From contig CAIIXF020000005.1 of the NCBI GenBank assembly GCA_903813345.2, positions 29,579,375 through 29,643,374 of the forward strand: a DNA stretch of 64,000 nucleotides. Reading direction: 5' to 3'. The translations under genes and the position numbers were made by a program. Numbering within the stretch: position 1 is the first letter of the stretch; the number at the start of each line of letters is the position of its first letter. This DNA is from Owenia fusiformis. Taxonomy: Eukaryota; Annelida; Polychaeta; Sabellida; Oweniidae. The notes under the pieces are model-generated. The model worked only from the letters and a program-made list of their open reading frames with translations. It searched no databases and was not told the DNA's origin. Below are positions 15,380-57,282 of this stretch, one piece after another.

Positions 15380-17715
15380 GCATGAACTCAAAACTATCTC
15401 ATCAATTGATCAACTCAATAAATCTGATAAAAACTATTGGAGGTTAATTAAATCATTCCTTGGTAACAATTTACATAAAAATGATATTTCTAGTATCTAT
15501 GACGATGTCTCTGGACACGACTTGATATAGCTAACCGATTTATGAGTTTCTTTGCCTCAAAAAATCATACTGATGCAACTTTTGATCAATTGCCCCATTT
15601 CCTAATTAGGACTAATTCTCTTCTAATTTCCGCCCAGACCGATCAATTCGAGGTTATGAAAATAATTTTGTCCTTAGACACCTCAAAGGCATGTGGCCCA
15701 GATAACATCACCAACAAAATGTTGAATTTGACAGCCCATACCATTTCAAAACCTTTATCCAACTTATTCAACAAACTTTTATCAAAGTGTACCTACCCGG
15801 ATATCTGGAAAATTGGAAATGTTTGCCCAATTTTTAAGAAGAATGACAAATCAAACATCAACAATTAAAGACCTATCACTCTTTTAAGATGTATCTCTAA
15901 GGTATTTGAAAAAGTTTTAGCTGATCGGATCAGGAAGTATTTAATTGACAATAATCTTCTTTTCAAACATCAGTCCGGATTCTTACCAGGTCATAGTACT
16001 ATTCATCAACTTTTATCGATTGAACATTTTCTTCAGAGCACATTCGAACAAGGAAAAGCTTCCAAAACACTTTTTCTAGATATAGCGGCAGCATTTGACA
16101 GAGTACCACATAAGCTACTACTTCATAAACTTTCAGCATATGGCTTCCAAGGGCAAATTCAAAAAATTATCAAATCTAACCTTACTAACAGAAAAATTGC
16201 TGTACAGATATCTGGGGAAATTTCAAATTATTCTGAAAATGAATTTATCAATTGTGGTGTCCCCCAGGGCTCAATACTTGGACCAATATTATTTCTCCTT
16301 TACATTAATGACCTTCCCGACAATCTGGAGGGGCATTGCTATATTTATGCGAATGACAGTTCTCTACATCAACCTTTTGACCCTAAGCATCCACAAGAAG
16401 TAGATTCAATAGTCAGATCTAACCTAATTAAAATTGAAAAATGGTCTGACACCTGGAAATTAGAGTTTAAACCTGAAAAGAGGTCTGAAATGATATTCCA
16501 CTCATCCAGATCTAAAGTCGATAATGTTTCTGTCTCAAAGTTAAACAATGTTGAAATTACCAGAGATCACGAGCACAAACATCTGCCTATCATATGACAA
16601 GCATATTGGAGAAATTATATCAAAAATACGAAAAATGTTGAACCCTTTAAAGAAACTTAAATACAAGTTAGGTAGCAAGCATCTAGAAACCATATTTAAG
16701 TCCTTTATTTTACCCCATTTTGACTATGGTGCTATCATGTACAGCACAGCCTCAAAATTCCTATTACAACGACTCGACAGTCTTTATTACAAAGCTGCAC
16801 TTTATTGTTCTGGGTGTATCCAAGAGAGCAGTTCAAAAAAGGTTTTAAACCTACTCAATTGGCCAACTCTTGAATCAAGACGCATTATCCAGATTAACAA
16901 CGTTATGTTCAAAATTGTAAATGGTACAAGTCTTCCCTATGTAACTGATATTTTTGACAAATTTAGAAACCATGCAAACAGAGTATTGAGATATAATGAA
17001 GCATTTAAAATGCCCATTAGATGTTCAAATAGATTCTCCACCTCAGCAATACCAGCTGCAATTTCAAATTGGATCAATCTTCCACCTGCTTTTAAATCTA
17101 TGAATACTCTTTCGAATTTAAAAAAACACCAAAGAGTACATTTCCAAAAAACGCCCTCGATTTTGTCTACAAGCCAGCTTAATCTAACAAGGGATCAAGA
17201 AATAGTTCTCAATAAAGTGAGAGCCGACCTATACTTTAAAGCCCAGTTCTACGCTCACAACTTTCAGTCTATTGACAGCCCTAATTGCACTTGTGGAAAA
17301 CCACAAACTCTGAAACATTTTCTCTTTCAATGTGACTTACTTACTTTACAAAGACAGCAGTTCAAGGACAAACTCACTGATCTCGAACCAAACATCTTCA
17401 GTCATAATCTCACTCAAACTGATTTCATGGCTATTTTGAAAACAGGAATTCCCAAATTAAACATAGATGCAAATTCCAAAATACTACTTCTCATTGTTAA
17501 TTTTATCAAGACAATAGCTAATTCCCTCCTTCTTATCCATCTTTAGTATCCTATAGTCCCGTCACACTTGCCCTAGTCCAAGACCCTGCCTGCTCTGCCA
17601 CTTCTACTTCCACCTGCCCCCTATTCTTATATAATGCCATTGTGGCGATTTAAGAATTTACATGTCTGTGTATTTACACTTTTTTGTATTCTATTGAAAT
17701 AAATTTAATAATAAT
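15380..17715 (+). mobile_element. 5-prime truncated non-LTR retrotransposon (LINE) with broken reverse transcriptase
   Basis: A jockey/CR1-like reverse transcriptase on the plus strand. Seen in order: N-Y-W-R-L-I-K linker (about 15430), S-L-D-T-S-K-A-C-G-P-D-N (15670), R-P-I-T-L-L (15870), the catalytic L-F-L-D-I-A-A-A-F-D (16070), C-G-V-P-Q-G-S-I-L-G-P (16255), and Y-I-Y-A-N-D-S where Y/F-A-D-D is expected (16340). The C-terminal part, 16548-17546, ends with a C-x-C-G-x8-H-x4-C zinc motif typical of these ORF2 proteins. Disruptions: a frameshift near 15522, an in-frame TAA at 15866-15868 in place of Tyr, the D-to-N change in the catalytic site, and a frameshift near 16590. The 3-prime end has AATAAATTTAATAATAATAA at about 17698, a simple-repeat tail. 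No endonuclease or ORF1 remains. Confidence 0.92.
15542..17546 (+). pseudogene. Reverse transcriptase ORF2 remnant of the LINE
   Basis: The readable coding core of the element. Frame 2 runs 15542-16585 interrupted by one TAA (15866-15868), then frame 3 runs 16548-17546. Because the active-site aspartate pair is A-N-D rather than A-D-D, the enzyme would be inactive even without the frame breaks. Confidence 0.88.
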
Positions 17716-20981: not shown

Positions 20982-21161
20982 AAACGCAGGTAGGAAAAGT
21001 GCCACCATGGTTATACAGGCCATCACTTTGACAGATAATGATTGGTTTTCCTACAAGTCTATAACATCGATCGCAGGTATAAACTGCTCTATCCCCACAG
21101 TCAGTGCCAAAGTAAGTGACCCTACCATTTTGGGGCCTTATGGGGTCTGCACATACCACAG
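20982..21161 (-). CDS. Exon 34, sushi module 27 (six-cysteine)
   Basis: A 60-codon exon in phase 1-1 with acceptor GTTATAG and a consensus GTAAGT donor, so the transcript must continue. It shows V-C-A-D-P-I-R-P-Q-N-G, G-T-D-C-G-D-R-A-V-Y-T-C-D-R-C-Y and ends P-T-C-V. Six cysteines. It lies 3.65 kb beyond exon 33, across an intron holding a MITE and a degenerate repeat. Confidence 0.85.
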
Positions 21162-24100
21162 CTATAACAATAGTTACATTTAGCGTTAATACAAACATAC
21201 ATCATATGAAATATATTACTACCGCTGCAAGTCAAAGTGAGGCCAAGTCTTCAACATTTGAGAAATACTATATCGCAGGATAGAACAAGAATGAATGCTG
21301 ATTTCCTTAATTTCGTCATCTCATGTTGTCTCAAATGTGGTCATTACTAAACAACATTGTCCGTGACACTAATTCAACTGAACATGTAGATGTACTACTC
21401 GTATTTTGAAACTTTATACAATGGGGTTTGGGCACAAAGGGCCAAAGTTCATAAAAACTATGTCATGTTGTATAGCTTACTTTGGCAAGATGGAAAATTT
21501 GTCCCCCACGATCCCTCCTCACTGCAAGTTATATTTCTTGGTCCAACTAACTGCCAACAATCCACGCATCCAAATGCCGCAACGCTTCCGCAGTTGAATG
21601 AATCGGAAAGAGTTAGTTGTCCTGGGGAATCCACTCTGATCCTTTGACAGGTTTTAACTGAAATTATGTTTTAAGACGTCAAATAAATACCGTGTGAATC
21701 TATTACCCAAGTGTGATGTTGAAATATAGTATTAAGTACCAATAGATTGGAATCATATGTCCTTATAAAACTACAGAAAATGCTGGATTTTTTTCTTCTA
21801 TGTCATGATAACATATATATTTTTATTCATTTATCTACTATGTTGACATAACCAACTCCTATAAATCACCAATAGTAATACCGGATATATACAGTGTACA
21901 TCCTGTTTTTATTGATACAGTTTAATGAAGTTTTATTGAGTATTTGAGAAAACAAAAAGTATTGTTATATAACATTATGTAATTCATAAAATACGTCATC
22001 ATATTATAATAGCAACAACAAACCTACTTAGTTTTGCCTATCAAAGAGTGCAAGTACCCAGAACATTACAGCTTCATGAATACAGTGTGCTTTATAATGA
22101 CCGTCCCAATCCACAGCCAATTCTAATCACATATGGTCCATGGATCTACACTCCCCTCCATAAGTTTGGCAATCTTTGCTCCCCCATTGAAATACGTGTT
22201 AAAGCCTCTTTATATTTGACTTTTTTATTTACTTAACCTGCGATGAAAATACTATTGATGGAACCGTAATTTGACTTTATTTCCAATCCCTCCAAATTTT
22301 CTGTATTTTCCTCAATTACAATAGGTCGAAAATTGATGATAAAGATAAATTTTTGAAAATCGACATTCCCATGTTAACCAATGGGAAATGGTAGGTTTGC
22401 CGCAAGTCATATGGCAGAAGATCCATCCATCCGAGTCATTGCAAAAAATACAAGTTGGGTAGGCAATTGAATTTGCTAACTTTATTTACCCAAAAATTGA
22501 TACGTTTCTTCAGGTTCAACAAAGTTATAGGTCTTTAAAGTCAAAATTGTTTTTCAAAAAACTCTCCCATTGAAGTAACACAGGAGCCGGAAAATGATTT
22601 TCAAAAATGACTTTGAAGCTCTGTAGCATTAGTATTCATCAAGTAAACTAAACACTTAATGTACAAAAAAATTTAAACAATTCAATTTTCTATATAAAAA
22701 TATTTTTTTGCTTAATCTTTTACTGAATAGATATCCTGATTTCTGATTTGCCCCGAACCCGCCATTTCCCATTGGTTTACATTAAAAATTCATCAAATTT
22801 ATCATCAATTTTTGACCTATTGTAATTGAGGAAAAAAAATTGAGAAAATTTGGAGGTATTGGAGATAAAGTCAAATTACGTTCTTTCCATTAATAGTAAA
22901 AAAGTATTTCCACCGCAGGTTAAGTAAATAAAAATTCAAAAGTAAAGAGGCTAGTTCAATTGGGGAGCAAAGGTTGCCAAACTTATGGAGGGGAGTGTAT
23001 GTATCATTACAACGCCTTTTCAATTCTAGACATATTTGCTAAATCCTGCCATGATTGATCATTTTGGAACATAATTTATGGACTAATGTTTGGTTGTCAC
23101 CATAACCCTAAATGTGCTAGATTTATGGTCGCTATTTGTAACTGATACATTACTGTAGATAGTACAATGGTGTTCCGAGAATTGGTTATCATTGCTTTTA
23201 ACAGCTGGGTATATGGCTTATTTATGAAAATGTCAAGAATTGAACGAGCTTTCATATGATATATAACACATGGAGGTACGTATATGCCATCTAGGATTGA
23301 TGATTGACGTGTTAGGCAGTCATTATGAAACACCCTGTATAATGTTACTTATATTTAGTTCATGTTACTGTCATTACATGAACAAGACATTAATTTCCCA
23401 AGAACATAACACTGTTCGTTGAAGGTAAGTAGCTATTACCTTGGGAGACTCACGTTTTTATTGTGGAAAATAGAATGTCATGTGAAACGTCAAAAACTAA
23501 CACGAAGATCCTAGAGTTGTAATGAAACATGTCACTATAGAAATACTTTATGGCATTATACTATGAAAAATGTATTGCTCCCATTAACCTGTCACGTTGA
23601 TTTATAAAATAAATAGCTAAAATATTCTTATCAAAGTGATAGTAATTATAAAAGTTACTTAAAAAGACAATTTACCATTAAGCACTAGCTTCTTTAATGG
23701 GTGTGATTAGACACCCACCCTGAGGCCCATAGCTTATTTATGCCTCGGTCATATTATTAAGCTCTACGGTCATTTGCTATATTGTGATCTCTACTTCGGT
23801 TTTTCTTAACCCTACTATCACATCAAACTAGTTCTCACTACATGTACGTACTCGAAACCGGGCTTTAACTGTCCAGGTTTGACGTACTAAGACGTTTGGT
23901 GTCTGTTTACAAACTACCCAAACGAGTAGGTCACTCAGACCTTAGAGCATGCTCAAAATTTTCTGGTAGCGTTTCTGGTGACTTCACGTTCTGCAATCAG
24001 AACGAGTGACAACGTACTTAAGACGACCTAGACGCACTGGGGACACACTACGAACTGAACTGTCAGATTTCAATCCTAGTAATGCGTCAATTAGGGACGC

Positions 24101-27100
24101 ATTACGTCGTTGTGCAGTCAGGCGGAAATTGCAGTTGTGAGTACACCATTTGTAGTTTATGAATGAATTAACAAAGATAGCCATCACACCAAAAAAGTCG
24201 TCACTGCGTTCTTTAAAACGTTGCCGAACTGGTTTTAAACTGTGTGCGAACTGGCTGATCCTTGCTACAACGCTCTATGGTCTATTTACGAACTTAATGG
24301 ACTTGCCCGGATGGGGAAGGTGATTGAGAATTTTGAATCAACTAAAAGTTCGATAGCGACATGGGGGTTCTGTTATCAGATCGTCTGACAACGTACTTCA
24401 AACGAGATGACCTACTAGACCATGAACGTAATTGCCGTACTTCAACCCTACTAGAGTCATTATACGACGTTTTGCAATCAGATATCTATGGTTGGCCTAT
24501 TAGTATAAAGAATGCATGCGTTGTTTACGGGTGTGTAGGCGTTAATTACGCTCGTGTAGATGTAAAATTACGCCCGTGCTGACGAAAAATTACGCCTGTG
24601 TAGGCGTAAATTACGCCCGTGAAGAAGTAAATTCTACGGGCGTTCAGAATACATTTACAGGCGTGAACTTACGGCGTTAAAATTATTAATTACGGGCGTT
24701 AAGACTGTTATCTTAGGACTGGAGAAGAATGGTTAAAAACTAGTTTGGTGTGATAGGGGGAGGGGGTTACCAGCCCGTCCCTTGGAGTGAAAAAATCGTT
24801 TAGATAACTCACCTGTACACGTTGGACCGGAAAACGGTGACCATCTCTTAGTCGGCATACACGTTTTGCTTTCTGAACCACTGAATATATAACAAGGTGG
24901 ATTGACACAAGAGTACGTCACAGTAGAACCACACGTTCGAGCTGATCCTGTAACAACAGTGTCTGGACGGAATGGTGGCTCTGAGCACGTTTTAACTGCA
25001 ATATAATTATGTCTCTGCTTAAATGAAAATGGCATTGATAATTGAACCGGTGACTGTACATCTGATTCTTTGACATTGAACGACTGGGATTTAGCTTTAA
25101 TTGAGTACTAGAACATGATCTAGGAATACGAACGTTGACAGGTAGGTGGGTTTATAGGGCTCCACTGTCCGTCATTTCCACACGTTCTTGTGGGCGAGCC
25201 AATTAGTTCGTAGCATTCCTCGCAGGAGTATGTCAATGTTGTTCCACATACCGTTTCATCTGTATCGATGAATCCATGTTCAGGGGCAGACGGTTGTGGG
25301 CCACATATATGCACTAGAGATATAAACAAATGACGGGTGGTGATATTGAGATGAATTGTTGAATGAATATTTTATTGACTGAATGATATTCAAAAATAAC
25401 GCAAGCTAATAGTTGCATATCGAATAAACAATTTATCGTATTTTAAGCTAGCGAGGGGATTTTGAATTTTGACGCGTTCCTTCATAACCCATCGTCTTGC
25501 AAATATTCGATATATTTCACGTGACTATAAATAATAAAAAGCTCCAAATATCATACAAGTGCACGTGGGTAAAGCAGACCATCTCCCATCCAATCCACAC
25601 TCAACCAGATTACTGCCATCTATCCCGTAGCAATTATCGCAGGCATACTCCAGTACGTCGCCTGTTACATAGGTATCAGTTGGATCTCTCAACCCAGAAA
25701 TAATCTCGCCATTCTCGAGTTGGACCTCAACAGGACATTCCCCAACTGCGATCAAAAAGATAAACTTATTGATAAAAGCATTAATTGTATATAAATAAAT
25801 TTAAAAAAAAATAAACATATACCACGCTGTAAATAAAAAATTATAAATGTAGTTAAGGGGGCTTTGTTTTTTCTAATATACGCTTTGCGTCAAATTGAAT
25901 TTGATTACATGTAACATGTTAAGATTGGAATAAACTTAAACTTATAACTTGACTATCATTTGCCTCGGTAATTATCATATTTAATTTAGTACATACCTCT
26001 GCATTCCGGTTCCTGTTTATTCCAAGTACCATCAACTTCACATGTTATTTTCTGAGCACCTATCAGGTTTTTATCCTCTTCACAAAAGAACGAAACCGAA
26101 TCACCACATACATTACCATCTGCCGTTCCATCTTCAATACCACCGCCCGCAGGTACCAAGACAGTCGGACACACATTCACTTTAAAAAAAACATTGATTT
26201 AAACAAGTATTTGAGTTTTATAGAAGTCAGAACTCGTGAAATTCATATCAAATTATCTTGAATGAATTCGATCATACATACAAATGCATTGTTGTGTATT
26301 ATGATCCCATATCGCCATAGCACCCTCTTGGACGCACGTTGCATTTTCTCGGCCTTGTAACATACGACATTTGTCGCATTCGTAAGTAATTGTAGAACCG
26401 CATTCAAAATTCTTGGGCCTAAATCTTCCGTTTTCTATGGTAGGTGGTGCATCACATACCAATACTACAGGCAATAAGAATAAATTCCCTTACTTTTGTT
26501 CATAAGAATGATCTTTTGCAATCAGTTTTGATCCAGCATATGTCCCGCATACTTCATTCTCGAGGATTTCGTAACGCCTATATTTTGTTTCGTCCGTTAA
26601 CTTTTTAATGCTGACTTTCTAATGACGTTCTTTTTTATTTTTGTGTAAAAAGCCATCCCCAGTCGGGATTATGTGGTTCGACTTTTGGAATAAATACGGG
26701 TTATGTACTGGGAGGTTTTGGAAATGGGGTTTATCCAGAGGGAGATACTGTATGCATATCTACCTGAGGGACCGTATGGACCGAAGGTAGATGTGCATAT
26801 CTCACGAGGGATGAACCCAATATCCAAACCGACCGTACATAACTGTTTTATCCTATACCAAGTAGAGTTTTCTAATTTTGTTTCATTTTTTCATTTTTTT
26901 TTTTATTTTTCAATTTTTCACATTTTTCAATTTTTTCCAATTTTTCAAATTTTTTTCTATTTTTTATTCTTTTTTCAATTTTGTATTTTTTCACATTTTT
27001 TCTTTTTTTCAATTTTTTCAATTTTTTTTTTGAAGCGGGAAGATATGCCCTGGAGCGGGAGATATGGCTGGAGATATGGAGGTTCAGGATATGGAAACCT

Positions 27101-30100
27101 CAAAGTCAGGATACGGGATATATCTTTCCAACTTATCTCCCTAAAACTCTACCTGGCATAGGATAATATATCATATCCATCCAAGATAAACCCAATAATA
27201 ACCCCTCACTAGGTATGGCCTCTATATATTAACGCGTCAACAGTACATGTACATACGTTCACATGGTATTGGTTCGATATCCCATACCCCACCCGTCTGG
27301 CATGTAAGAGATTGGATGACCTGGCCTCCCGCAGCATGACAATCATCGCATCTGACCTCTATGACGTCACCGGGAAAGTAAATGCCGTCTATTTTTTCAC
27401 CGGATAGTACTTCACTTTTTTCAGGTGTTGTAAATGCTTGACAAGGTATTTCTACAAGGCAATACATGTTTAAAGTAACTTTCTATGATTTCATCTAAAA
27501 ATTAAAACCTTTGGAAATACTAAATATGGTTTAGGTGCCATATATAAAAATTTATTTTAGAAATATTGTGGATCAAAATGAAAAAAAAACAAAAATAAAG
27601 AATAAAAACATATTCCACTGGAGGGATTTGAACCCAGATCTGTTGGAATAAAAGTCTGTTTGAGCCCAAAGCTCTAACCACTACACCAAACTGCCAAAGC
27701 TTCCTGAAGGAAGCAATTCTTTATCTATATAATCATGGACGAAAAAAGTCTTATTTACATGCTTAAATATCTTAAAAATGATCAGCATTACTACTAATAA
27801 TAACATTTTGCATGTCTGAGTAAGTATTTTGATCTACATTTAGGATAAAGGTTGTTTTATTCAGTTTTCATTTTGGGTATGACTTCCTGTCAAAACAGTG
27901 CTAAAAATGCAGGGCTCAACAAAAAATTTCAATTAGAAAATGATATATATCCTTTGATCAGCTGTTTTTGGCACCTGGACTCATCCTACTAGAAAGGTAA
28001 GAGCATTTTCTTGAGACATATGGCTCGAAATCTCACATTTCTTCTTCTAAGTCTTAGAAAGACACGTTAATATGTCAAACGTATTTCGATTCTTTTCAGC
28101 AGACACATAAGGACATCCCTCGCATATAGGGGAATCCAATAGACGCAGCCTTAGTGTCAACCCAAAAATTTCTTTAAGACGTTATGTTCTGTTCCAGAAC
28201 CCTTGTTTTCAATGCTTTGAAACAGTAATATAGACAAACTTTGATTGTTAAGTTTTTTAGAGTTAAACAGCGGTCGTTTTATGAGCAACTCCCTAACAAA
28301 AATCCCGTTCAGTAATTCACTGAGATATACTGTAACCCCTTTTATGGGTAACCACACACTTTGCTACTAGGAAAACATAAAATGGTCATTTATTGATTTA
28401 TTTTGGCCATGATCAGGTCAATGAATTAAAATATATGAAAGCAATTTAGGGTGTAAGCAGTGGTCTATTTTTATATTAAGTTTGATATACGTTTATTTTC
28501 TTTCACAGAAATCTCCCCAAGGTTTGTAACCGTTTTTTAACTTTCTCGTTTCCCATGGGTAAAATAATCTTAACAACAATTAGCTAATATCATTTAGTTC
28601 TTTAAAAACAAAAAGATAAAATTTGGCATTATTTGATACCTTCTAGATAAAAATTGTTATCCAAAATGGGGATGATATCTAGTAAGAAGGTCATAGATTA
28701 AAAATATAAAATATGACAATAACCAGTAGGAAGGGATATGATGAAAACAGCATTTGATAATAACAGCATTTTTCTGACATTGTACGGTTCTTAATGATAT
28801 ATTTTATGTCAAATGATTGTGTATATTGTGTAAAAATTTCTTTTGAAAATATTTTCAATTAATTCTTGAAAATCGCCCCTTGCTGAAATCCTCCATTAAT
28901 TTTCCGAAAGATTTGCTTTAAAAACAGGAGTCGGTAATGTAATATATCAATACAAAAGTCCAAGTAAGAATAAAAAACTAAGGTTCTTCAACATGACATT
29001 TTCCAGATTTTCTGGGGTTTTGGTCACTTCTAATATTCTTTTCAGCAAACACATGAAGGCCTCCTCAGACTAGGTGGGGCAACATTAAACGCAACCTTGC
29101 GAACTGTGTCAATTTTTCAATTTTGGCAAGATGACGTCGGGGGTTTTCGCCTATGTGTGAAGAGGCCTTAAAGGCAGCATATACGTGATGACTTCATGAC
29201 GTTCGTTATAACAGTCACTGATCCATTCATAATATAATTTCCGTGAATCAATATGATAGTATCATAATTACGTTTACAGGACGGGAACGGATTACTCCAA
29301 CCAAGGCCTGAGCAGGTTAACGAACTTTCTCCCTCAATCATATATCCTTCACTACATACGAATAGTAGCGCACTCCCACACGTTCTGGATATATTCCCAC
29401 CATCGTTTATAATACCATTTTCAAAAGGAGGTATCTCAGAACAAGTTCTCGCTGAAAGTGGAATATTTAGTTAATTTGATTAATTTCTTCACAGCATGAA
29501 CACATGATCATTGACTCTTAGACATAACGACACTTGCACCGTAATGTTGCACCTGCTATCTGTTATTTTTCAATAAATGTATTTTGAACGAGCTATCTTG
29601 TCAAAGGAGCACATGCCGGATACATCTCAAATTGGCAATATGGAGAACCTTAACATCATTTACCTTGACAAGTCGGTGATTCACTCCATCCATCCTCACT
29701 ACAAGTGATTTGTTCCTCTCCGATAAGATCAAAACAATCACTTTTACAAGTTACATTTATTGCCGAACCACATCTGTTATCAACATCCGATGCAAATAAA
29801 CCATCTTGCGGTGGGTCAATGTCCTCGCAGGTTTTAACTGAAGCAAGTGCCACTTATTTAACAAAGTAAGTTGAATACTGTATACATCTTCGCTATTAGG
29901 GAAAATGTTACTATGGAAAACACTTTGACCAAAAGAGCTCAAAATATTTAAAGCACTAGTTTTTTCATCTCTTAATAAAATTTTTATCACCGTCTAGGAA
30001 CCCTATAGGGTTATATTATATAATGACGTTTTAAATTACCTTTACAAACAGGCCTCGCGCCAGTCCAGGTGCCATCAGCTCTGCAGATAATAGTCATCTG

Positions 30101-33100
30101 ATCTTCGCTGGTTCCACCCTCGAACTCATAACAAGTATCACAGGTGTATGTCAAAGAATTTCCCCTTGTAAACGTTTCTTGTACTTCACCTATTACCCGA
30201 CCGTTGGCAACGTCCCCGGGATTCACACAGTCTACATCTGAAACTGTAAAAGAAATTATTAAACGTCATGATTAAACGTCAACAGTATACTGTACAGTAT
30301 ATAATTGATATACAATTCTATATTTTAGTTAATTATTTAAAGACACTTACGTATGCAGATTCGATCCGATTGTTCCCATCCATCTTCTGTACACTGGATG
30401 ACGATTGGGCCAAAGCCAGATAGTTCATAAAGACTGTCACAGGAATATGAAGCATTGTCTCCGCAGTTGTTCCCGCCAATCAATGCGCCATTATTCACCA
30501 CCAGTCGTTCACATGTTTTAACTAAAGAAACAGAAAAACATATAGGGACGAGTGTTGAAAGGGTAACTTACCAGGAGTATTACAAGAAGAAAACCTAAGT
30601 AGACAAAGAAAACAAAACATCATATACATGGAGTCACCAATACATTTCGAAAGCGATCCCTGGCACATATGAAGTTCACATACCATCAACACATATTTGA
30701 AAAAGCAAACTTTATAACCAATCCGTGCTTTAAATATGTTTGGCATGATCTGTTGATCATTGATCGACCCTGCTTTACACGTTTTATGACTTGATATTTA
30801 CTTGTGCACACTGGTGTTGCTGCAGTCCAAGTGCCATCAGCCTTACAAGTAAGTGTCACTTGCAGGCTGGTTCCATTCTTGAACTCGTAACAAGGGTCAC
30901 AAGTATATGAAACGTCGTCTTCGACTATGAAAGGACCTCCACTCGAGATTGTGTCACCATTGGAAATCACTCCTGGATCGGGGCAATTAGGCGCTGGAAG
31001 AATCAGTTATTATGAATAAAAAATGTACTCTTGTTATTATTGAAAATAATGACGATTGTCAGGCTGCTTAAATAAAAAAATAAACACAGATAACTTACAG
31101 CATAACTGAGTTGGATCTTCCCATCCATCAGGGGTGCATCTAGATGTAGGGGAACCAGGTCCAGATAGGTAGAAGTTTTCATTGCAGGAATATGTCACTG
31201 TTTCACCACAATTAGTACCCCCACTGACAATGCCATTCTCAATGAGCAAGGGTCCACATGATTTAACTTAAATGCGGAAATCAGATTGACATTTCTTAAC
31301 AATTAAAATCTCAAAAAGAATAGCTGATATCAAGTTCAACTCATTTACGATAAAATGCAACATTAGATGATAGTTCAATAAAACTAGTATCGAATGTAAT
31401 AGTAACATAAACAACAACTGAATGTCGAATAACATAACATTAGCATTATTGTGTAATATTAATATATTACCTTTACAGACAGGTACAACACCAGTCCAAG
31501 TGCCATCAGCGTTACAGGTGATTGTCACCTGTCCATCGCTGGTTCCACTCTCGAATTCGTAGCAGTCGTCACATACAAATGAAACGTCATCTCCGACTCT
31601 GAAAGGACCTCCACTCGAAGATACTTTACCATTTGGAATTAATCCTGGATCTGGACAGTTTGGTGCTGTAAAGTTAAATATACACTTATTAACCATTCTA
31701 TTTTTGTTGCAACCAATTTTTATCAATTGGAAACAACTAGAAAGCAATAAGAACGTAAATGAATTCTAAGAAGATACACTGTTTACAATTAAAGATCTGT
31801 TAAAATATTGCAATCGAGTTAGGACGAAAAAGATATAAAATATGTACCGCATATTTGAGTTGGATCTTCCCATCCATCAGGGGTGCAATTAGATGTAGGA
31901 GAACCAGGTCCAGATAAGTAGAAGTTTTCATTGCAGGAATATGTCACTGTGTCACCACAATTAGTTCCCCCACTGACAACGCCATTCTCAATAATCAAGG
32001 GTCCACATGATTTAACTGTAAATGTACAAAGCAGATTGGATGTTTTGCTATTTACTATCAATTGTTATTTCAACATTTCATTAACAACAACTGTCAGTTG
32101 ATATCAAAATCAATTCTCTACCTATTTAATTTTATCATCTTAATTATATAATATAGCCTAAGGCCTATTATGATGTTGAATATAAAATAAAGATATTGTG
32201 TAAAAAATACCACCTTACAGATAGGCCCGTAAGATTATAGCCAAACATTATCATTATAGTGTATGATGGTAACATATTAAATATGAAATAACATTACATT
32301 AGCATTCATGAATAATATAAGCGTATTACCTTTACAGACAGGTACAACACCAGTCCAAGTGCCATCAGCGTTACAGGTAATTGTCACCTGTTCATCGCTG
32401 GTTCCACTCTCGAATTCGTAGCAGTCGTCACATACAAATGAAACGTCCTCTCCGACTCTGAAAGGACTCCCACTCGACGACGTTTTCCCATTGGGGAACA
32501 TTCCTAGGTCTGGACAATTTGGCACTACAAAACAGGAATTGTTAATTAAAGGCAGAATCAGATCTATGGGGGTGACATAATTACAAGCAACATGTACAAT
32601 TGACCTCCCGATATATTCCTTACAATATCAAATACAATATCTCTCAAGAGATTCACGATATGTAATAAATTGGTGAAGTTATAATGGTTTCAAGGTGCAA
32701 AAATGGGTGAAAAATGTTTAAATCCTCCTAAATAATAAGAATGGTAACCATTCTTATAGAAAAATACTACATTATTGTAAAACTCTTTAGTTTTCCTGAA
32801 TTAAAGTGCGCATTTTTGGTGATTTTTAGAAAATAGTCATGAAAAGGAATGACATTAGCCAGAAATATTCTAAATGACTGCTCGCTATATCTGATTCTCT
32901 CTTTAAACTCAGCCAAAGACTCTTTAGTTTGTAATATAAATACAAACACTGGTATCACTCAAAAGCAAACTACTTACTGAATCGATTAAAACTTACAACA
33001 TATTTGTGTTGGCTCTTCCCATCCATCAGGGGTGCAATTAGTTGTAGGAGAACCAGGTCCAGATAGGTAGAAATTCTCATTGCAGGAATATGTCGCTGTG

Positions 33101-36100
33101 TCACCACAATCAGAACCCCCACTGACAACGCCATTCTCAATGATCAAGGGTCCACATGACTTAACTGAGGTAATCGGAAATTCGATGTTATTATGCATAT
33201 ACAATGAATAAAGTTATGTTGGTTATTGAGTCAACAACTTATAATTTACTACGTCCAGTCTTCTACATGCAAATTCCATCGAACAAAACATCCGTTTTCA
33301 AATCAATCCCCTCTTAGAATTACCTTGACAAACAGGAAAAACGTCTGTCCAGGAGCCATCAGGATTACAGGTGATTGACACCTGGTCTTCGCTGGTTCCA
33401 TCTCTGAACTCGTAGCAGGGGTCACATGTAAACGTTAAGGTATCGCCCTGTGTAAATGGGCCCTGTGGACCTGTTGTTTCGCCGTTGTCAATCTGCCCCG
33501 GATCAGGACACTTTGTTGCTGCGAAATAATATTTCAATCATGTTTTTCATGCATTTAATCTTTTTTGACATTACATTGAAAACATAAATGCCTGTAGTAA
33601 TAATAATGTTCTAACCATTTCGATTTACCCCATGTATTTCTTCTGTATATACACGAAATTTGAAAATCAAATCTGGTATGGTTGTAAAACACTTTCTGAC
33701 AAGACAAATTGTAATTGTTTGGTTCAGCTTTAATTTGAATCACTTCACTTTTCCTATAAATAATTTATTATATTATTTATATGAAAAGTGAAGTTTTCTC
33801 TGATTCCATTAACCAGCATCAAATAACTAGGACAGTATTTTGAGAAACCATGCGAGAATGCAGTGGAATTGTCAGAGACTTAAGTTCAACATATTATATC
33901 TTAGATACCATCGGATTACGTGGTCTTGATTTCATAAGTTCCATGTCAGAAAGTAGTTTTACTAGACCCATACATGTACCTTCCATGCCAGAAGCAATAT
34001 ATCTGGGTGCTAAGGGTTGTATTTTTTGTTTACACTGTATGCAACTTGATTTATTTTTTAAAGTATCCTTTCACAAAAACAGTTTATACAGGATCGTATT
34101 CGATGTTCAATCTAATTATCATTCTATGTTATAAAAAAACCGCGTCTTATATTTTTTCACGAGTACTGTAATATTAATACCCACCCAAACACACAAAAAT
34201 CGGTATTGGGTTTTCCCATCCATCACTCGTACACCTTACAGTTGGGGAACCTGACCCAACCAATTCGAATCCCAGGTCACATGTATAGGTAGCCGTGTCT
34301 CCACAATTGGTTCCACCAATAACAGACCCATTGTCTATTTCTATTGATCCGCAGGTTCTTACTGAAAATGACAATGAATTTTATGCAGTTAAACAGATTA
34401 CTCATACCCTTTGCATTCGTTTGACTTCGCTTCTTAAAAGAGAGCTTAGACTCTGTACGCAGGGTAGATTACTCACTAATTCCCCATCACACAAAACTAA
34501 CTCTCAAACTCTCAAAGTGACGAATCAACTATCTTATGCATCATAAAAAATGAAATAAATAATATTTTAGTTAGGAAGAAATGGCATAAGGCATCAAGTG
34601 TTTTAATAGTGACTCCGTGTAAGACTTAATCAGACATAAAACAACAAATGTGTAGTGCCTACGGGAAATACAAAAAACAGAGTAGCAAGAAGAAGTTACA
34701 TCTAAAAGTACACAAGTCATAAGACCCAAATCACAAGTCCCAAATCGTCATCTAACGTAAAAAGAACACTGTCTAATTTCCCCTCCCCAACCGTCCGAGT
34801 ACCAAAATCACAAATATTGCTTTGAAATGTATTTACTTTTACAAACCAATGACGGCTCAGTCCAGATGCCATCAGCGGTACAGGTGACTGTTATCTGTTC
34901 ACTGGTTCCATCTTCAAATTCGTAGCATGAGTTGCAAGCATAGCGGACCGTGTCACCAAAAGCATATTGACTGCGTTTTTCTTCAATCGCACCATTATCA
35001 ATTGATTCAGGCTCAGGGCATTTTACTCCTATTGCAATTAGTAAAACAATATGACTATAACTAACTGATCATCCAATCTGCCATATTGGCTATGTATCGA
35101 CAAACTTACAATATTTATATTCACATTCCCATCTAAAGATGTCAGGAAGCAACATTTCATTGAGTCAGACAACAATGTAATTACATGTCATAGGGATACT
35201 AGATAGGGATGTCAAAAATGTATTATTCTGCATCAAATATACTACACGCTTTTCATCTATGTAACCAAGGAACAGTTTTAACACATCCTCTGTGTTAACC
35301 TTTAAAATACAAAAGTTTTCTATAGTTAGATACACACAAGAAAATAGTTGAAACTATTTATTGCACATGGTCTTGTTAGCAAAATATGATAAAATACTTA
35401 GACTTACTTGAACATGTCTGTCGATGTCTCTCCCATCCACTATCTGTACAGAGTACTGAAACTGGTTCAGTGTTTGATAGCTCATATCCAGAATTACAAG
35501 AGAGAGTTACGCTGTCGCCACAATCCGTTCCACCAGACGCTTCCCCATTTTCAATTAGAAGAGTGCCACACGATTTTACTAAAATAAGTTAAATAATTAT
35601 TGTCAAAGCGTTTAAAGAATACACTTCGGTGAATTCTTTCCTAAATAAGGAGAAACAGCAGTGCCACTCAAACGCTTATGCGTTTGACGGATGGCTACAC
35701 AGTTGTTTCGTTGCTTAAATTATCATTGGTATGCTATATAAATTATATACACGTCGTAATTACGATTGACATGTAAGTACGGTCCATCCATGCAAGTTAT
35801 AGGACCTAGACAGTAGACACCACTTACTTGTACAACGTGGTACTGCATCACTCCAGGTGCCATCAGCGTCACAGGTGATTCTAACCTGGCCTTCGCTGGT
35901 TCCATCTCCGAAATCGTAGCAGTTGTCACATGTAAATATCAGATTGTCCTCGTATAAAAATGGGGAAGTTGCACCAGTTACTTCCCCGTTCTCGATATCC
36001 CCTATATCTGGGCAGCCTACGCCTGTATTTGAAATATTGGAATGACGTTGCTTTAGATCGACACCCCAGTGGAAATACATTGTGCTACTAGATTTAGTAA

Positions 36101-39100
36101 ATACAAAGAATAAACTTCGTTCAACGCTAAGCTATTTTGTATACCGAAGACCGCCGTTGACTTACGCCTGCAAAAATGTGCCTCTTGTTCCCATCCTTCT
36201 GGCGTACACTGAAGTGTCTGAGGGCCTGGTCCGTTATTTGTTTCAAAGCCTTCGTCGCAAGTGAATTCCACAGTGTCGCCACAGTTATTACCGCCAGTCA
36301 CATCTCCATTTTTGATCTGCAGCGGTCCACAAGATCTAACTAAATGAAAAGCAACCAGTAATAAAGGTGACCAGTGTCATAACATTCTACCGACGCTGCA
36401 CGGAATTTAGCCATGTAAGTTGTCTGAATGACCTGGGTAATGTAGTATATCATGTTCGATGAACAATAAACCTACTCTTGCAAGTTGGTGCTACGTCGTT
36501 CCAAGTGCCATCAGCAGTGCAGGTAATTGTCACCTGATCTTCGCTGGTTCCATCTTCAAACTCGTAGCAATCATCACATGTGAATGTAAGTGTATCTCCA
36601 TCACGAAAAGGACCCTTTGGACCAGTCACATTTCCATGTTTAAATTCCCCGGGGTCTGGACAACGTAAACGCTTATCAACTGAAAGACAAGTAGAGTTTT
36701 GTTACCATATAATGTTATTGATAAAATGTTGGAATTGCTCCACGTCACATCATTTCATCTCTTGGGCATCACTAAAATCAGCAAAACAAGCAAAGAAAAC
36801 TAAAAAAGAAGTGTTCCTTTTTGTAAATGAAGGTTAGTGAAAGTTATTTTAACAATATGGGGTGATATATTAACATATTATGAAGATATGCATTTACACT
36901 TTTTAAAGAGATCGGGTCTCCCAAAAACACAATTAGAGTAACCCCCTGCTTTTTTCGTGTTATTTGATGTAAAACAAGTTTGTTTATCAACTTATCAATT
37001 CTAAGGCTTGAATTAATTCGTTAACAGTATCAATTCGATGATTGTTCCTAGCCATGAATTTCCACTTGTAGAAATTTAAATTTAAATTTAAAAAGCCCAC
37101 TCAAATTTGTTCCAGTCTGATTGGCTTTTTCCTTCAGATTATTTTGGCTTAGAGAAGCCATATTTATTACTTCTAAGGGGTTACAATATAGATAAATCCC
37201 CCAAAAACATTGTATTCTGATTTCGACTTATATGCATTCAATTCTGACAGTTGGTTGTTCTTTTGATTGTCCTGTTGATATCCTCAATATATTGTCGATA
37301 TCGTGCTTATAATTTGGTCTCAAGATATATCTAAGGTATATATTATGTTTTATGAGCAATAATATTGGGACATTACTGATTGTCCAGAATAGAAATCTGG
37401 ACGACTCGATCTCTTTAAGAAAGTTTGATTTCATTTATGGTTGATACAGGGAACCAAAGTCACATGACCCGAGACAAAACTGAAAAATATCATATTGTTA
37501 CGTGGCGTTATTGTAATTTTTCGTTATCGTAATTCACATTGCACATCACCAGTGTTTTTAATTACTTTACTAAAATCTCGGGGAGGGCATACGATAATTT
37601 TACGACATTACGATATTTTTCCAATTAACCAATCGTCCCCAGTTTAGTACATACCACATACTTGTGAAGGGGTTTCCCATCCTTTTGTAGTACATTTGAC
37701 ACTTGGGCTTCCAGGTCCGACGAGTTCGAAGCCAGTCACACAGGTATATGTAAGCGTATCGCCGCAGTTAGTGCCTCCATTTACAATAGCATTCTCAATA
37801 AGAAGCGGTCCACATGACTTTACTGCAGATGTTAAATTGATAAGAAACATATCAGAAGTCCTAAATATGAAGCTCTAGAATATAACCAAGGCATATGAAC
37901 AAAACTATATCTTGTTACAACGAGGGTATATCTTCGCGTCTTGAATTCCCTTGACAAATCCGTATATGTACTTGGACTTGGGTACATTGTGGCTAAAAAT
38001 ACAATAACTCAATACTTATCCAATAATTCTAATCCTTGATGAATTAAAAAATAAACAATTAATCGGGCTCACTTTTACATTTTGGTGGATCATCCGACCA
38101 GGTCCCCTTAATGCTATTCTTGATACTATCAATGCACGTTATGGTGGAGCTGCCAACTAGATCATAGCACGGATCACAAGCATAGTTCACTGTGTCCCTA
38201 CATTGATTATTTTTTGAATCTACGGATCCAAACTTTGGAGCTTTTGGCTTTGGGTTACATTCGATAACTTAAAGAAAATCAAAATGAAATACTATATTTA
38301 GTGTTTTACAATTGGCTAATGAAATGACAAAAGGTTATAACTTTGAAGGCTATACAAAAAAACTTTTAGTACAATACATACCCCAATGTTTAAGAATCTA
38401 AAACTTGAGAATACAAATACAATTTAATACCTTTGCATTTCGGGAGTTTAGCCCATCCAGCATATCCTTCTTCATCCAACCGGCATTTGACTCTAAGTCT
38501 CTTCAAGAATTTGACTCCGCGACAGTCATCACAGGTATATTGAGAGATGGAATCAATCGGATATTTAGATTCTGGGTCAAATGTCTCGCCAACACCGATA
38601 TCAATCTTGGGACCAATGATGACGTTAACAAACGTGCCATTGATGATATCTTCGGTGACTTCGCCACAATGAGCAGATTCTACATAAGAATTGAGAAAAT
38701 GAATGTAAGCAAGTTAGAGTAGGGTAGGCGATTAATTAACTTCATAAACCACATTTTTTCGATCCTGTTCAACATACTCACCTTTTGATATACTATTTTA
38801 ATTGAAATGAAAAAAATCATAGCTAGTTAATCTCTGTTAGATCATTCTACCAAAGCACATTATTAAATGTGATTATTAAATACGGTAGTTGTCTAGAAAT
38901 GCCCATGCCTCTATCATATAATTGCCACAGGCACGATATCTGAGCCGAAGCTATATTATATTGAAGACTATGGATTGCATTTGGGAAAAAACTCAATGAA
39001 CGACCTAGTTAAAAAGAACTCACTGCATGCGTTTAGTCTACAGTACGCCCTACTCACCTAAACACGTGTCACCAACAGGACACTCTTCAAACATCGCCTC

Positions 39101-42100
39101 GTCATCAGCTTTACATTCGTGCATCGGATTTTTCTTCACGAGCTTTTCGTCCAGAACACAAGAACGAGTCCTCTTCCGATGGCATTTCCCTTTTGGATTG
39201 TATGTACATTCAGACCATTCCGACCAACTCTCCCAATTCATCGGAGCTGTAAAGATAGTGTCAATTTTATATTTAGATAATTCTTCCTTAACAAATACTA
39301 TGTGAAGTGTCAAGGAGATAAAACAGGTAGGATAGCATTGACCAAAAACGCTTAACTATTTATTTTATTCTAATTACACATCACAACTAATGTTGAATTA
39401 GCATGGGATGAGCAAATTATATGAAATGTTCAAATATAAGTATAGAAAATATCTCGATGGAACTATTTCGTATCTTCTCTCGGTTTACACAAAAGTTTGA
39501 TATAAGATATCTCTCGTGCTTCGTGCTCGATATTTTTAATTACCGTTCGTAGAAATCTGAGTTTGATTTATGTAATCTTGCATTTAAATATTAGGAATTT
39601 TAATTACCTATACATTTTATCGTGCAATCTTCACCCTCTTTAGAAAGGCAGTTGCAAATATTGGCATCAAATCCGTTGATATCGCAACAACGTTGTCGTT
39701 CCCGTAAGCATTTGTTGTCACAAGTGAACCATTGGCTCCAAACACCATAGACAGTGCCAGCACCTGCTTATTTAAGTCAGTGTATATCTTAATTTCCAAC
39801 ATTGATATCATACATTATTGCTTTTTACAGGTCGCTCCCTACTGTCAGTATTGACTAGAAAATAATGATCTCTATACTTGAATAAAGACATGGTGAGTTC
39901 AGCGAAAATTACGAGTAAACTACGAATAAATAGAATAGATGTCATAACCTTCAAGTTGAGAAAGAAAACCAAACCATCAGTGTCTGTTCAATATTTTATC
40001 CAAAAGACACGTGTACACAATTACAGAAAAGGCAAAAGTGATTTGACTCTATTGATTAAAGACTATGTTCGATTCAGGGTGGGAAAAATGGGTCAACAAC
40101 ATACATTCTGTTTAAAAGACATAAAAAATGTCATAGAAATAGGGTAATATACATTTTGAACATTTCTGTACATATATTAATTCCAAATCAAAACATAAAA
40201 TTTTATATCAAACAATGGCCGTTTTCATTACCCTTCCTTCTCGAAATAACCTCGAAAAACAGTTTTTGATTTTGCAGACTTTTTATACAGGGTGACCCAA
40301 AAAAATGCAACCCTCCATTTCGTCAATATTTTTCTTAAATGGAGGTAAATTGCTCTGAGATTTGGCACACAAGGACTTCATTCTATGTGGGATCCTTTGG
40401 CAAAGTTTTAATAATCATAGCCTTATATTGATAGAGTTATGGTTGTTTCAAAATATGCTCCAGATGTCATCAATTTCGCTGAAAACAAACTTGCAATGTT
40501 CAAGGAAAACTGTTCATAACATGTATGCATTCTTCCCCATGGGTATGGCTCAAATTTTTGCAGTCATTGCTTATTGGAGTTCTGCAATTGCGGTACGGTT
40601 ATTTTCATACACATTAACCTTTAAATAACCCCGTATATAGAAGTCAGAGGCATTGAGATCAAGACTGTGGGATGACCATGGGTCATCCATCCTAGGAGAG
40701 ATAATCTTCTCATAGAAATGACTAGTGAGCCAGGCTATGCTATCATTAGAAGTGTGAGGAGTAGCTCCATCCTTCTAGAACCACTGTTCTTGTCTATTGA
40801 AGCCTCTGTGTCACTCTAAAACTGCCTGGGAACGCCAATATTGCGCTGTGTGTTAACAGTAACAGTGTTGCCATTATCAACCTCAAACCAAAAGGGGCTG
40901 ATGATTTCATGTTTGGAAATTGGCAGCCCAAGCTGTGCATTTAACAGCATGTAGGGGCCTGTGAAGCACTTTATCTGGAATTTGTGATCCCAGAACACAT
41001 TATTCCTTGAGTCTACATGTTCAGAAAGAAGGGAATGTGACTCATCCGAAAACCTAACATTGGAAATGGACGACATTTGGAGCATATTTTGGAACGACCT
41101 AACTCTATCAATATAAGACAATGATTATTGAAACTTTGCCAGAGGATCCCACATTGAATGAAGTCCTTGTGTGCCAAATTTCAGAGCAATTAACCTCCAT
41201 TTAAGAAAAATATTCGAGAAATGGAGGGTTGCATTTTTTTGGGTCACCCTGTACTTAAGATTACTATAGTTTTAGGTACAATTCTTTATTTCCCCTCATT
41301 TCATCATTTTAATCTTACACCTCGCCAAAAAATAGAATGATGACTACATTTTGATTTTTCATTATAGAAACTAACGTTTAATTGGCACATCGGGCCCATA
41401 GCCAGGGGGTCGAGCCCCAAAAGTTCTTTCAAAATCCTGCAATTTTCCACCATTCTGAGCACTTTTCTAGTGATTTTTTGCCTTTTTTAGGCCAAAGTTG
41501 TCAAAAGTGAACTCCTTTGGAATTTTTTGAGAAGTGAGACTCTCTTGGCAAATCCTGGCTACAGGCCTGTACAGCGCTATTTTATTAGTTTTCAAAAAAG
41601 TCTGATAATCAAGGCTACTCTGCAAAAATTGAACAACGTAATTGATGGTAGGTTGGCTCGGGAATATAAAAATCCTTCCAATGGTATATAATACCATTAT
41701 TTTACTAGGATCGAATTGTGATGTACAATTCTTGGCCATGTTTTATCTTTCTCACTCTGTATATATTTTAGAAGATATTCCCTGTTCTATTATCTTCACC
41801 TTTCTCACATCCAGATGTACCTTCACCACATTCGTCAATTTTTTCTTCTGTGAAACCATATTCAGAATCAAGATTGTATCTCGTATTGTTTTCAGCTATC
41901 CGACATGGTACAGGTGGAATCTAAATAGAAATATTATTAGATCGTATGGTAATACAACAGATGAGCAGCAAATACATTGCATAATAGACACTGAAAGAGA
42001 TACATATCAATGAAATCATTGAAGTATGAATAAATCGTTATCAATTTTAAAACAAAAGCTCAATAAATTATGAAATTAAGGTTTAGTCTGACTTTCAGAA

Positions 42101-55830: not shown

Positions 55831-56089
55831 AGGACATGCGCACTTTTATCAGATTTGATTCTAATATGGTTTCAAAGATAATGTTCATTAAAAGAGGGCG
55901 TATGCATACAGATTACACGTGGCGTTATGTTGAAGTGACCCTTGCAAAGGGTTCCATTGAAAATATATTATTTTGGGCCATTTCATATCTTTTAATTGAT
56001 ATTGTATAAAATATTTTCAATGTTTGAAAATTATAATCTTATAAATAACATTTTATGTAATAAAACTGTAACGAAATGGTAAATACGGA

Positions 56090-57055
56090 ATATGATGCAA
56101 TACAATGCAGTGCAATATGATGTTATACAATGCAGTGCAATATGATGCAATACAATGTGGTGCAATATGATGTAATACAATGCGGTGCAATATGATGTAA
56201 TACAATGCATAGCAATATGATGCAATACAATGCAGTGCAATATGATGCAATACAATGTAGTGTAATATGATGCAATACAAAGCAGTGTTATATGATGCAA
56301 AAAATGCAGTGCAATATGATACAATACAATGTAGTGCAATATCATACAATAAAATGCAGTGCAATACGATGCAATACAATACAGTGCAATATAATGCAAT
56401 ACAATGCAGTGCAATACAATACAATGCAAAACAATGCCGTGCAGTGCAATACAATGTAGTTCATTTCAATACAATGCAGTGCAATACAATGTGGTACAGT
56501 GCAATACAATGCAGTGCAATAAAATGCAATACAGTTACAATGTAGTTCATTTCAATACAATGCAGTGCAATACAATGTGGTACAGTGCAATACAATGCAG
56601 TGCAATACAATACATCGCAGTTCAATACAGTGCAGTGCAATACAATACAGTGCAATACAATACAGTGCAATATAATGCAATACAATGCAGTGCAATACGA
56701 TGCAATACAATACAGTACAATATAATGCAATACAATGCAGTGCAATACAATACAATGCAAAACAATGCCGTGCAGTGCAATACAATGTAGTTCATTTCAA
56801 TACAATGCAGTGCAATACAATGTGGTACAGTGCAATACAATGCAGTGCAATACAATACATCGCAGTCCAATACAGTGCAATACAATGTAGTGCAATGCAG
56901 TGCAATAAAATACAATACAGTGCAATTCAATACAATGCAATACAACACAATGCAATACAATACAATGCTGTGCAATACAATAAAATGCAGTACAATACAA
57001 TACAATGATGTGCTATACAATACAATACAATGCAATGAAATGCAATTTAATGCTA
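56090..57055. repeat. Pentanucleotide satellite array, about 965 bp
   Basis: Made of 5-bp words of the form GCAAT, ACAAT, GCAGT, GTAGT and (in the first 300 bp) ATGAT. Larger internal duplications exist: ACAATGCAGTGCAATACAAT at 56401 recurs with its following 120 bp about 331 bp downstream. The motif TAGTTCATTTCAATACAATG occurs three times (about 56456, 56540, 56787). The array lacks stop codons in most frames, which produces long spurious open frames on both strands with 5-residue periodicity. Confidence 0.95.
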
Positions 57056-57282
57056 TGAATGTACACCTTCTACAGTCAAATAAACACAGATAAAATTGTA
57101 ATAGTATGTTAGTGTATGGAGTTTGAAGTGGGTGGGGGATACAATTACCAGTCTGCTGATTGATGACTTAATAACTTAGAAAAGATCTGCTAGTTTTTAA
57201 CAGGTGGCACTTATGTCTACCTTATGTTCTTGAACAATTTCGTCTAAGAATACAGACCCGTATCCTTGATTAACCTGGGGGA

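Follow-up and report, generated by a model that had tools for sequence, protein, structure and literature searches.

The closest described systems to the locus considered here are the tandem arrays of sushi, or complement control protein (CCP), modules in factor H, CR1 and CR2, and the short consensus repeat (SCR) of the selectins. In the selectin SCR, the extra cysteines lie at positions other than eight residues before and three residues after the second canonical cysteine (Cys2-8 and Cys2+3), and they pair internally. Known CCP arrays are described with two disulfides per module and linkers of 2-8 residues, which allow a wide range of orientations (PMC10518620) and make the shapes of such arrays hard to predict. 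The locus is a sushi gene on the minus strand of a 64,000-nucleotide stretch of the Owenia fusiformis genome (the window; contig CAIIXF020000005.1, C5:29579375-29643374 within the 498 Mb assembly), with 28 sushi-like exons, numbered 8-35, spanning 38679 down to 20982. Its likeness to factor H, CR1 and CR2 lies in the tandem arrangement and the CCP fold (model Z up to 9.8), and its linkers fall within the published 2-8 residue range (PMC10518620). Unlike in those proteins, the fifth and sixth cysteines of its modules are placed at the junctions, where both or neither are present, and the linkers of the junctions proposed here to be stapled are nearly always 4 residues long. As in the selectin-type SCR, six cysteines can occur in one module; unlike in that SCR, either of the two extra cysteines of the window modules can be present in a module without the other.

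Below, L denotes the extra cysteine at Cys2-8, and R that at Cys2+3, or at +4 or +5 in two exons; modules with L only are type A, those with R only type B, and those with both LR. The exon structure and splicing were taken from sequence only. The four canonical sushi cysteines are invariant in 28/28 exons, and all 28 modules have one or two cysteines beyond these four (exactly one in 21/28), for a total of 147 in the array. L is at -8 in all 17 window modules carrying it, and R is at +3 in 16 of the 18 carrying it, with exon 26 (+4) and exon 33 (+5) as the exceptions. From exon 8 to exon 35 the states read R-LR-L-R-L-R-L-R-L-R-L-R-L-R-L-R-L-R-LR-L-R-LR-L-R-LR-LR-LR-LR. Counting cysteines by position reproduced the types given to exons 9-34 by a first-pass annotation, with 10/26 modules having L only (10, 12, 14, 16, 18, 20, 22, 24, 27, 30), 10/26 having R only (11, 13, 15, 17, 19, 21, 23, 25, 28, 31) and 6/26 having both (9, 26, 29, 32, 33, 34); its statement that every A directly precedes a B also holds across these exons, and each B in turn precedes an A or LR module. 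The description needed adjusting in three respects: L had been given as an N/T-x-C-G site, of which the position stands and the motif is loose (QCR in exon 9, ECG in exon 29); the C-x-x-C just after Cys2 describes R at +3 and not in exons 26 and 33; and the range 24813-37822 spans exons 33 to 10 only, with exons 9 and 34 outside it (Table 1), while the choice of exons 9-34 omits exon 8 (R only, with no A before it) and exon 35 (LR).

Read across junctions, R of one module goes with L of the next. In the window, R(n) with L(n+1) gives 17 junctions with both, 10 with neither and none mismatched (n=27), an agreement of 27/27 that was reached in 0/10,000 shuffles of module order. For comparison with other loci, a search of the genome with one LR module gave at least 139 matches (150 of 402 candidates scored; 150 of 981 were scored from the other candidate list); fifteen loci in six stretches were read, then seven more loci, the cluster at C5 (9.44-9.66 Mb) being partly read. 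The junction set is made up of 11 arrays that carry extra cysteines, namely the window array and ten others (C5D being split at a 9.4 kb gap), with 205 modules and 194 junctions; 176 of these junctions are readable and 18 unreadable, since L is undeterminable for split exons of which the second half alone was found. Half exons were merged for one C5B module and one C5A module before counting, and the set leaves out sushi matches with E >1, the C11 matches 28342667 and 28347514 (judged to be translated flanks), the partial tandem copies at C5:9495600-9498400, and the two modules at C1:12.97M, of which the first is plain and the second has R besides further extra cysteines. Over the 11 arrays, 114 junctions have both halves, 60 have neither and 2 are mismatched, so that 174/176 readable junctions agree; when module order was shuffled within each array, agreement averaged 0.581 and was at most 0.699, and the observed 0.989 was reached in 0/10,000 shuffles. 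The array on C11 taken alone agrees in 20/20 junctions, which 2/10,000 shuffles reach. Within modules, L and R are uncoupled (both in 55, neither in 17, L only in 62, R only in 50; n=184).

The related arrays of the same genome are built in different ways around the same junction rule. With 0 marking a plain module, the C11 array (28342789-28355730) reads 0-R-LRx9-L-R-L-R-L-R-LR-LR-LR-L and the C12a array (4364144-4356728) reads R-LRx5-L, the end of an array meaning here, on a sequence basis, that no further module was seen in the DNA stretch examined. C12b and C12c, which are close relatives of each other, read LR-L-0-0-0-0-0-R-L-R, and in both every R that has a sushi module after it directly precedes L. 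The C5 cluster is built largely of R-LR-L, R-LR-LR-L and R-L blocks; the last module has L in C5A and C5B, and the first has R in C5B and C5C. L and R are both absent from every module of two ordinary sushi arrays in this genome, of 48 and 13 modules, and in viral contigs 13 stretches matched a pattern, none of which was confirmed.

Here it is proposed, as very likely, that R pairs with L of the following module, R(n) with L(n+1); we infer a disulfide, which would stiffen the junction. R, just after Cys2 and at the C-terminal end of module n, would bond L, eight residues before Cys2 and at the N-terminal end of module n+1, so that a junction with both halves would be locked by a single such disulfide and one with neither half would be free. 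Runs of the form R(LR)nL would be covalently locked units of 2 modules (B-A), 3 modules (R-LR-L) and up to 11 modules in the C11 paralogue, and junctions with neither half (from A to B, or between plain neighbours) would be ordinary bendable hinges. In the window, staples would be present at 17/27 junctions (8-9, 9-10, every second junction from 11-12 to 25-26, and 26-27, 28-29, 29-30, 31-32, 32-33, 33-34 and 34-35), which would give the locked units 8-9-10, the pairs 11-12, 13-14, 15-16, 17-18, 19-20, 21-22 and 23-24, and the further units 25-26-27, 28-29-30 and 31 to 35, with hinges at the ten A-B junctions. An absent lock would lack both of its halves and so leave an L-only module before an R-only one, from which it follows that every A precedes a B.

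The modules that carry these cysteines are ordinary CCP modules with added cysteines. Four of the five exons scanned of the 28 (10, 11, 26 and 35) passed the cut-off of 20.7 bits of Pfam Sushi (PF00084), and a Trp between Cys3 and Cys4 is nearly invariant, with Tyr in exon 35. The AlphaFold2 model of exon 32, made from an alignment of the 28 window exons, has a predicted local distance difference test score (pLDDT) of 94.7 and matches CCP modules in the PDB with Z up to 9.8 and a root-mean-square deviation of 1.0 over 56 residues; E-selectin chain 4c16 is among the best fold matches (Z 9.5). Isolated bridge residues are present in the model at 2 and 21, next to Cys1 and L, as are short strands at 36-37 and 57-58, near R and Cys4; that each of these sets pairs is the authors' reading of the model.

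Published CCP interfaces bear on where L and R would be found. In the nuclear magnetic resonance structure of factor H 10-12, Pro661, Arg662, Phe663 and Leu664 of CCP11 pack on Tyr710, Tyr711 and Gly712 of CCP12, and His651 of CCP11 contacts strand E of CCP10 at Thr602 and Val604 (PMC4068365). His773 is among the CCP13 interface residues of the 12-13 pair and faces strand E of CCP12 (PMC2806952). Mapping on the PDB sequences of factor H gives Cys2 of CCP11 as 659, with Arg662 at the R position and His651 at the L position, Cys2 of CCP12 as 719, with Tyr711 at the L position, and Cys2 of CCP13 as 781, with His773 at the L position. At the 11-12 junction the R and L positions are therefore both in the interface, and at 10-11 and 12-13 the residue at the L position meets the preceding module. 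The 11-12 contact is non-covalent in factor H (662 is Arg and 711 is Tyr), whereas the window has cysteines at both positions. The cited factor H pairs are tilted by about 80-90 degrees or more, and a stapled unit therefore need not be straight.

This geometry also bears on bonds between chains, in which R of one chain would meet L of another at aligned junctions and produce multimers or a cross-linked matrix. Such bonds are compatible with the sequence, and the leftover terminal cysteines of exon 35 and of C12b-d could bond another chain; however, in 174/176 readable junctions the co-occurrence links neighbouring modules of a single chain, and both positions already come together within one factor H chain (PMC4068365), so that an interchain arrangement is considered very improbable.

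The scheme of the first-pass annotation, in which L and R bond inside LR modules and L of each A bonds R of the following B to form rigid dyads, pairs 34/35 of the extra cysteines of the window, the same number as the pairing of R(n) with L(n+1), and is consistent with each A in exons 9-34 preceding a B. Since each scheme leaves one window cysteine over, the choice between them rests on other arrays, on linkers and on geometry. The C11 and C12a arrays have an R-only module at their start (preceded in C11 by a single plain module) and an L-only module at their end, so that each of them has two cysteines left over under A-B and intramodule bonding and none under R(n)-L(n+1) pairing; because exon 8 of the window is a poor sushi module, this argument from array ends rests mainly on these two paralogues. 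In C12b and C12c, five plain modules stand between L and the next R, which makes an A-B bond impossible at that point. One CCP-like domain is described as having its sheet pinned at opposite ends by Cys1-Cys3 and Cys2-Cys4 (PMC9163516), and a CCP module is 3.6 nm long (PMC10518620); L and R accordingly sit at the two far ends of a module, and L of A and R of B would be about two modules apart. Moreover, one geometry suffices for R(n)-L(n+1), whereas A-B plus intramodule bonds need two unrelated geometries for the same two positions.

The linkers, measured as the residues between Cys4 and the next Cys1, are also against the A-B scheme. Junctions of the window with R and L have a 4-residue linker in 17/17 cases, usually with an aliphatic residue second, while the linkers of the A-B junctions have 6, 4, 4, 4, 3, 3, 3, 4, 4 and 4 residues (4 residues in 6/10; Fisher P 0.012 against the stapled junctions). 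In six paralogue stretches (C11, C12a and C5A-D), measured with splice sites picked by a script, a 4-residue linker was found in 60/62 stapled and 14/21 unstapled junctions (P 7.1e-4); in C11 alone the unstapled junctions too have 4-residue linkers (4/4). The length constraint falls on the junction predicted to be locked, B-A, and not on the A-B junction. Taken with the array ends, the plain modules and the geometry, this makes A-B dyads with internal bonds in LR modules very improbable. The array pattern reported by the first-pass annotation is real, then, and its A-B pairing very probably wrong: complementarity of the extra cysteines and their pairing across modules are retained, with other partners; internal pairing in LR modules is at odds with published CCP geometry, in which L and R are at opposite module ends; and the A-B junction, which had been taken as a rigid covalent double module, would be an unstapled hinge if R(n) pairs with L(n+1).

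It is also highly improbable that the alternation is a by-product of the duplication of an A+B exon pair, with extra cysteines that are not bonded together. Exons 10-25 do resemble a duplicated A+B unit, through whose duplication, judging from the sequence, they clearly appear to have grown, the copies being most similar around exons 18-22; however, the junction rule also holds across plain modules and in arrays whose repeat units are different (R-LR-L, R-LR-LR-L or R-LRx9-L). A mixed scheme, with LR modules bonded internally and each R-only module with the next L-only module, fails, as it would place the partners 10 (C11) and 6 (C12a) positions apart.

Several observations weigh against the pairing of R(n) with L(n+1). 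The strict alternation in the interior of the window array fits A-B bonding equally well, so that the array ends, plain modules, linkers and geometry alone discriminate. The arrays share ancestry, so that the junction counts are not independent, and the shuffling ignores this relatedness. The two mismatches among the 176 junctions are cases of R followed by a module whose fifth cysteine is at -14 or -16 (C5:9447368 and C5:9630633), as if an insertion had moved L; with the two displaced cysteines scored as L, the counts become 116 both, 60 neither, 0 and 0. In the factor H papers cited, the residue at the R position is named in 1/3 cited junctions and the residue at the L position is at the interface in 3/3, and His651 and His773 contact the preceding module at its Cys2+5 and +7 and not at the R position. 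The kinked interface in the factor H 18-19 crystal uses other residues (PMC3289644). Exon 8, which supplies the R-only start of the window array, is a weak sushi module, with no Pfam Sushi match, 10.7 bits (E 0.064) against a model built without exon 8, and a pLDDT of 59.7 in its AlphaFold2 model.

The remaining points of this kind concern terminal cysteines. For R of exon 35, no L partner was found in 31 kb downstream, of which the 21 kb within the window were searched by hidden Markov model (HMM), tblastn, pattern and exon scans and the next 10 kb by HMM, tblastn and pattern. The C11 counterpart of exon 35 precedes an L-only module, and the exon after 35 may have been lost, missed, or replaced by a tail cysteine. 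The frame read past the donor of exon 35 (20982) ends in TCVCK and a stop, which could supply a tail cysteine two residues after Cys4, able to pair with R of exon 35 if this exon is terminal, or could be merely a translated splice donor (GTAAGT). C12b, C12c and C12d also end with R, with no L after it in the DNA examined (only 1.3 kb beyond C12b). In one of these three related arrays, C12c, a trypsin-like open reading frame (ORF) follows near 5074.5k (C12:5072001-5082000; Pfam Trypsin E 3.8e-11), which could supply the partner of the terminal R; a sushi array followed by a trypsin-like ORF is reminiscent of horseshoe crab factor C or complement proteases. Lastly, the first module of C12b and C12c, with seven cysteines in all, has a cysteine at -7 for which no partner was seen.

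Precedents for a bond of this kind were looked for in the literature and in the PDB. In the available texts of the literature searched, which was not exhaustive and had most subscription papers outside it, no disulfide linking adjacent sushi modules was described, and where 'interdomain disulfide' stood beside a sushi or CCP term in them, the cases were unrelated (peptidase domains, other proteins and reference lists). A cysteine at both the L and R positions was found in none of five partial alignments, from the best 60 of 95 PDB matches to an LR profile, which does not exclude a precedent; a PDB search with one C11 LR module gave 67 matches, the best 60 of which came with no alignments.

The exons of the window array are given in Table 1. 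Exons 8-35 are all compatible with phase 1-1 and one module per exon, and exons 9-34 could be re-derived as putative minus-strand phase 1-1 exons with plausible splice sites. When all six frames of the window were scanned with a model built from these modules, no additional module exceeded its threshold. The stretch at the 5' side of the array matches Pfam TSP1_CFP_C with E 0.0023 and 18.8 bits, under the family cut-off of 27 (one of three upstream stretches tested), and the cysteine-rich stretches upstream of the array are perhaps thrombospondin type 1 domains, as judged by eye. The encoded sushi chain is presumably extracellular.

Table 1. Sushi-like exons of the window array and a neighbouring cysteine-rich stretch (window coordinates; L, extra cysteine at Cys2-8; R, extra cysteine at Cys2+3 unless indicated)
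Feature	Position	Strand	Description
Exon 8	38431..38679	-	First sushi-like module, R only, no L; low-confidence fold
Exon 9	38073..38267	-	Sushi, L and R
Exon 10	37655..37822	-	Sushi, L only (type A); Pfam Sushi 30 bits
Exon 11	36476..36679	-	Sushi, R only (type B); Pfam Sushi 48.7 bits
Exon 12	36166..36339	-	Sushi, L only
Exon 13	35828..36022	-	Sushi, R only
Exon 14	35408..35578	-	Sushi, L only
Exon 15	34837..35028	-	Sushi, R only
Exon 16	34185..34361	-	Sushi, L only
Exon 17	33324..33518	-	Sushi, R only
Exon 18	32997..33164	-	Sushi, L only
Exon 19	32330..32524	-	Sushi, R only
Exon 20	31848..32015	-	Sushi, L only
Exon 21	31471..31665	-	Sushi, R only
Exon 22	31099..31266	-	Sushi, L only
Exon 23	30802..30993	-	Sushi, R only
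Exon 24	30351..30521	-	Sushi, L only
Exon 25	30040..30237	-	Sushi, R only
Exon 26	29664..29837	-	Sushi, L and R (R at Cys2+4); Pfam Sushi 22.3 bits
Exon 27	29272..29451	-	Sushi, L only
Exon 28	27257..27451	-	Sushi, R only
Exon 29	26282..26464	-	Sushi, L and R
Exon 30	25997..26179	-	Sushi, L only
Exon 31	25557..25745	-	Sushi, R only
Exon 32	25134..25313	-	Sushi, L and R; module modelled with AlphaFold2
Exon 33	24813..24995	-	Sushi, L and R (R at Cys2+5)
Exon 34	21481..21657	-	Sushi, L and R
Exon 35	20982..21161	-	Last sushi found, L and R; Pfam Sushi 33.9 bits
Possible thrombospondin type 1 stretch	39053..39355	-	Cysteine-rich, 5' of the sushi array; open frame, exon ends undefined

Elsewhere in the window, a 332-residue ORF at 16548-17546 (+) is taken here to resemble part of a retrotransposon reverse transcriptase, and 56031-57167 is a low-complexity repeat that is open in several frames on both strands and produces cysteine-rich false ORFs. 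Among the other sushi loci of the genome, the first modules of two arrays, at C12:30139547 and C12:5081710, have seven cysteines each; two extra ones lie before Cys2, separated by a few residues, and possibly form a third kind of local bond. Within the C5 cluster, C5:9495438-9498361 consists of a 172-base unit repeated 17 times at 98%, which holds most of an LR sushi exon without its end, and from its sequence it appears to be a satellite that arose by expansion of a portion of a coding exon. Also in this cluster, the sushi-like exon at C5:9655702-9655866 lacks Cys2 and Cys4, which are a bonded pair, and yet keeps L; it may have dropped a disulfide as a unit or may be a decayed exon. One control array, at C1:21970151-21978388, is a single intronless open frame; its 2766 residues comprise about 47 ordinary sushi modules with four cysteines each.

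If R(n)-L(n+1) pairing is true, it should be possible to lock two ordinary sushi modules together by giving the first a cysteine at Cys2+3 and the second one at Cys2-8, with 4 residues in the linker. With the chances evenly balanced, this genome may use a covalent stiffness code, in which locked and free junctions would be set exon by exon as R(LR)nL blocks and families would have diversified by moving locks and hinges; a module known for flexible linkers would then be built into a covalently cross-linked multi-module superstructure. If the junctions are stapled, the shape of the chain would be partly readable from its sequence, as a succession of locked pairs and bends.

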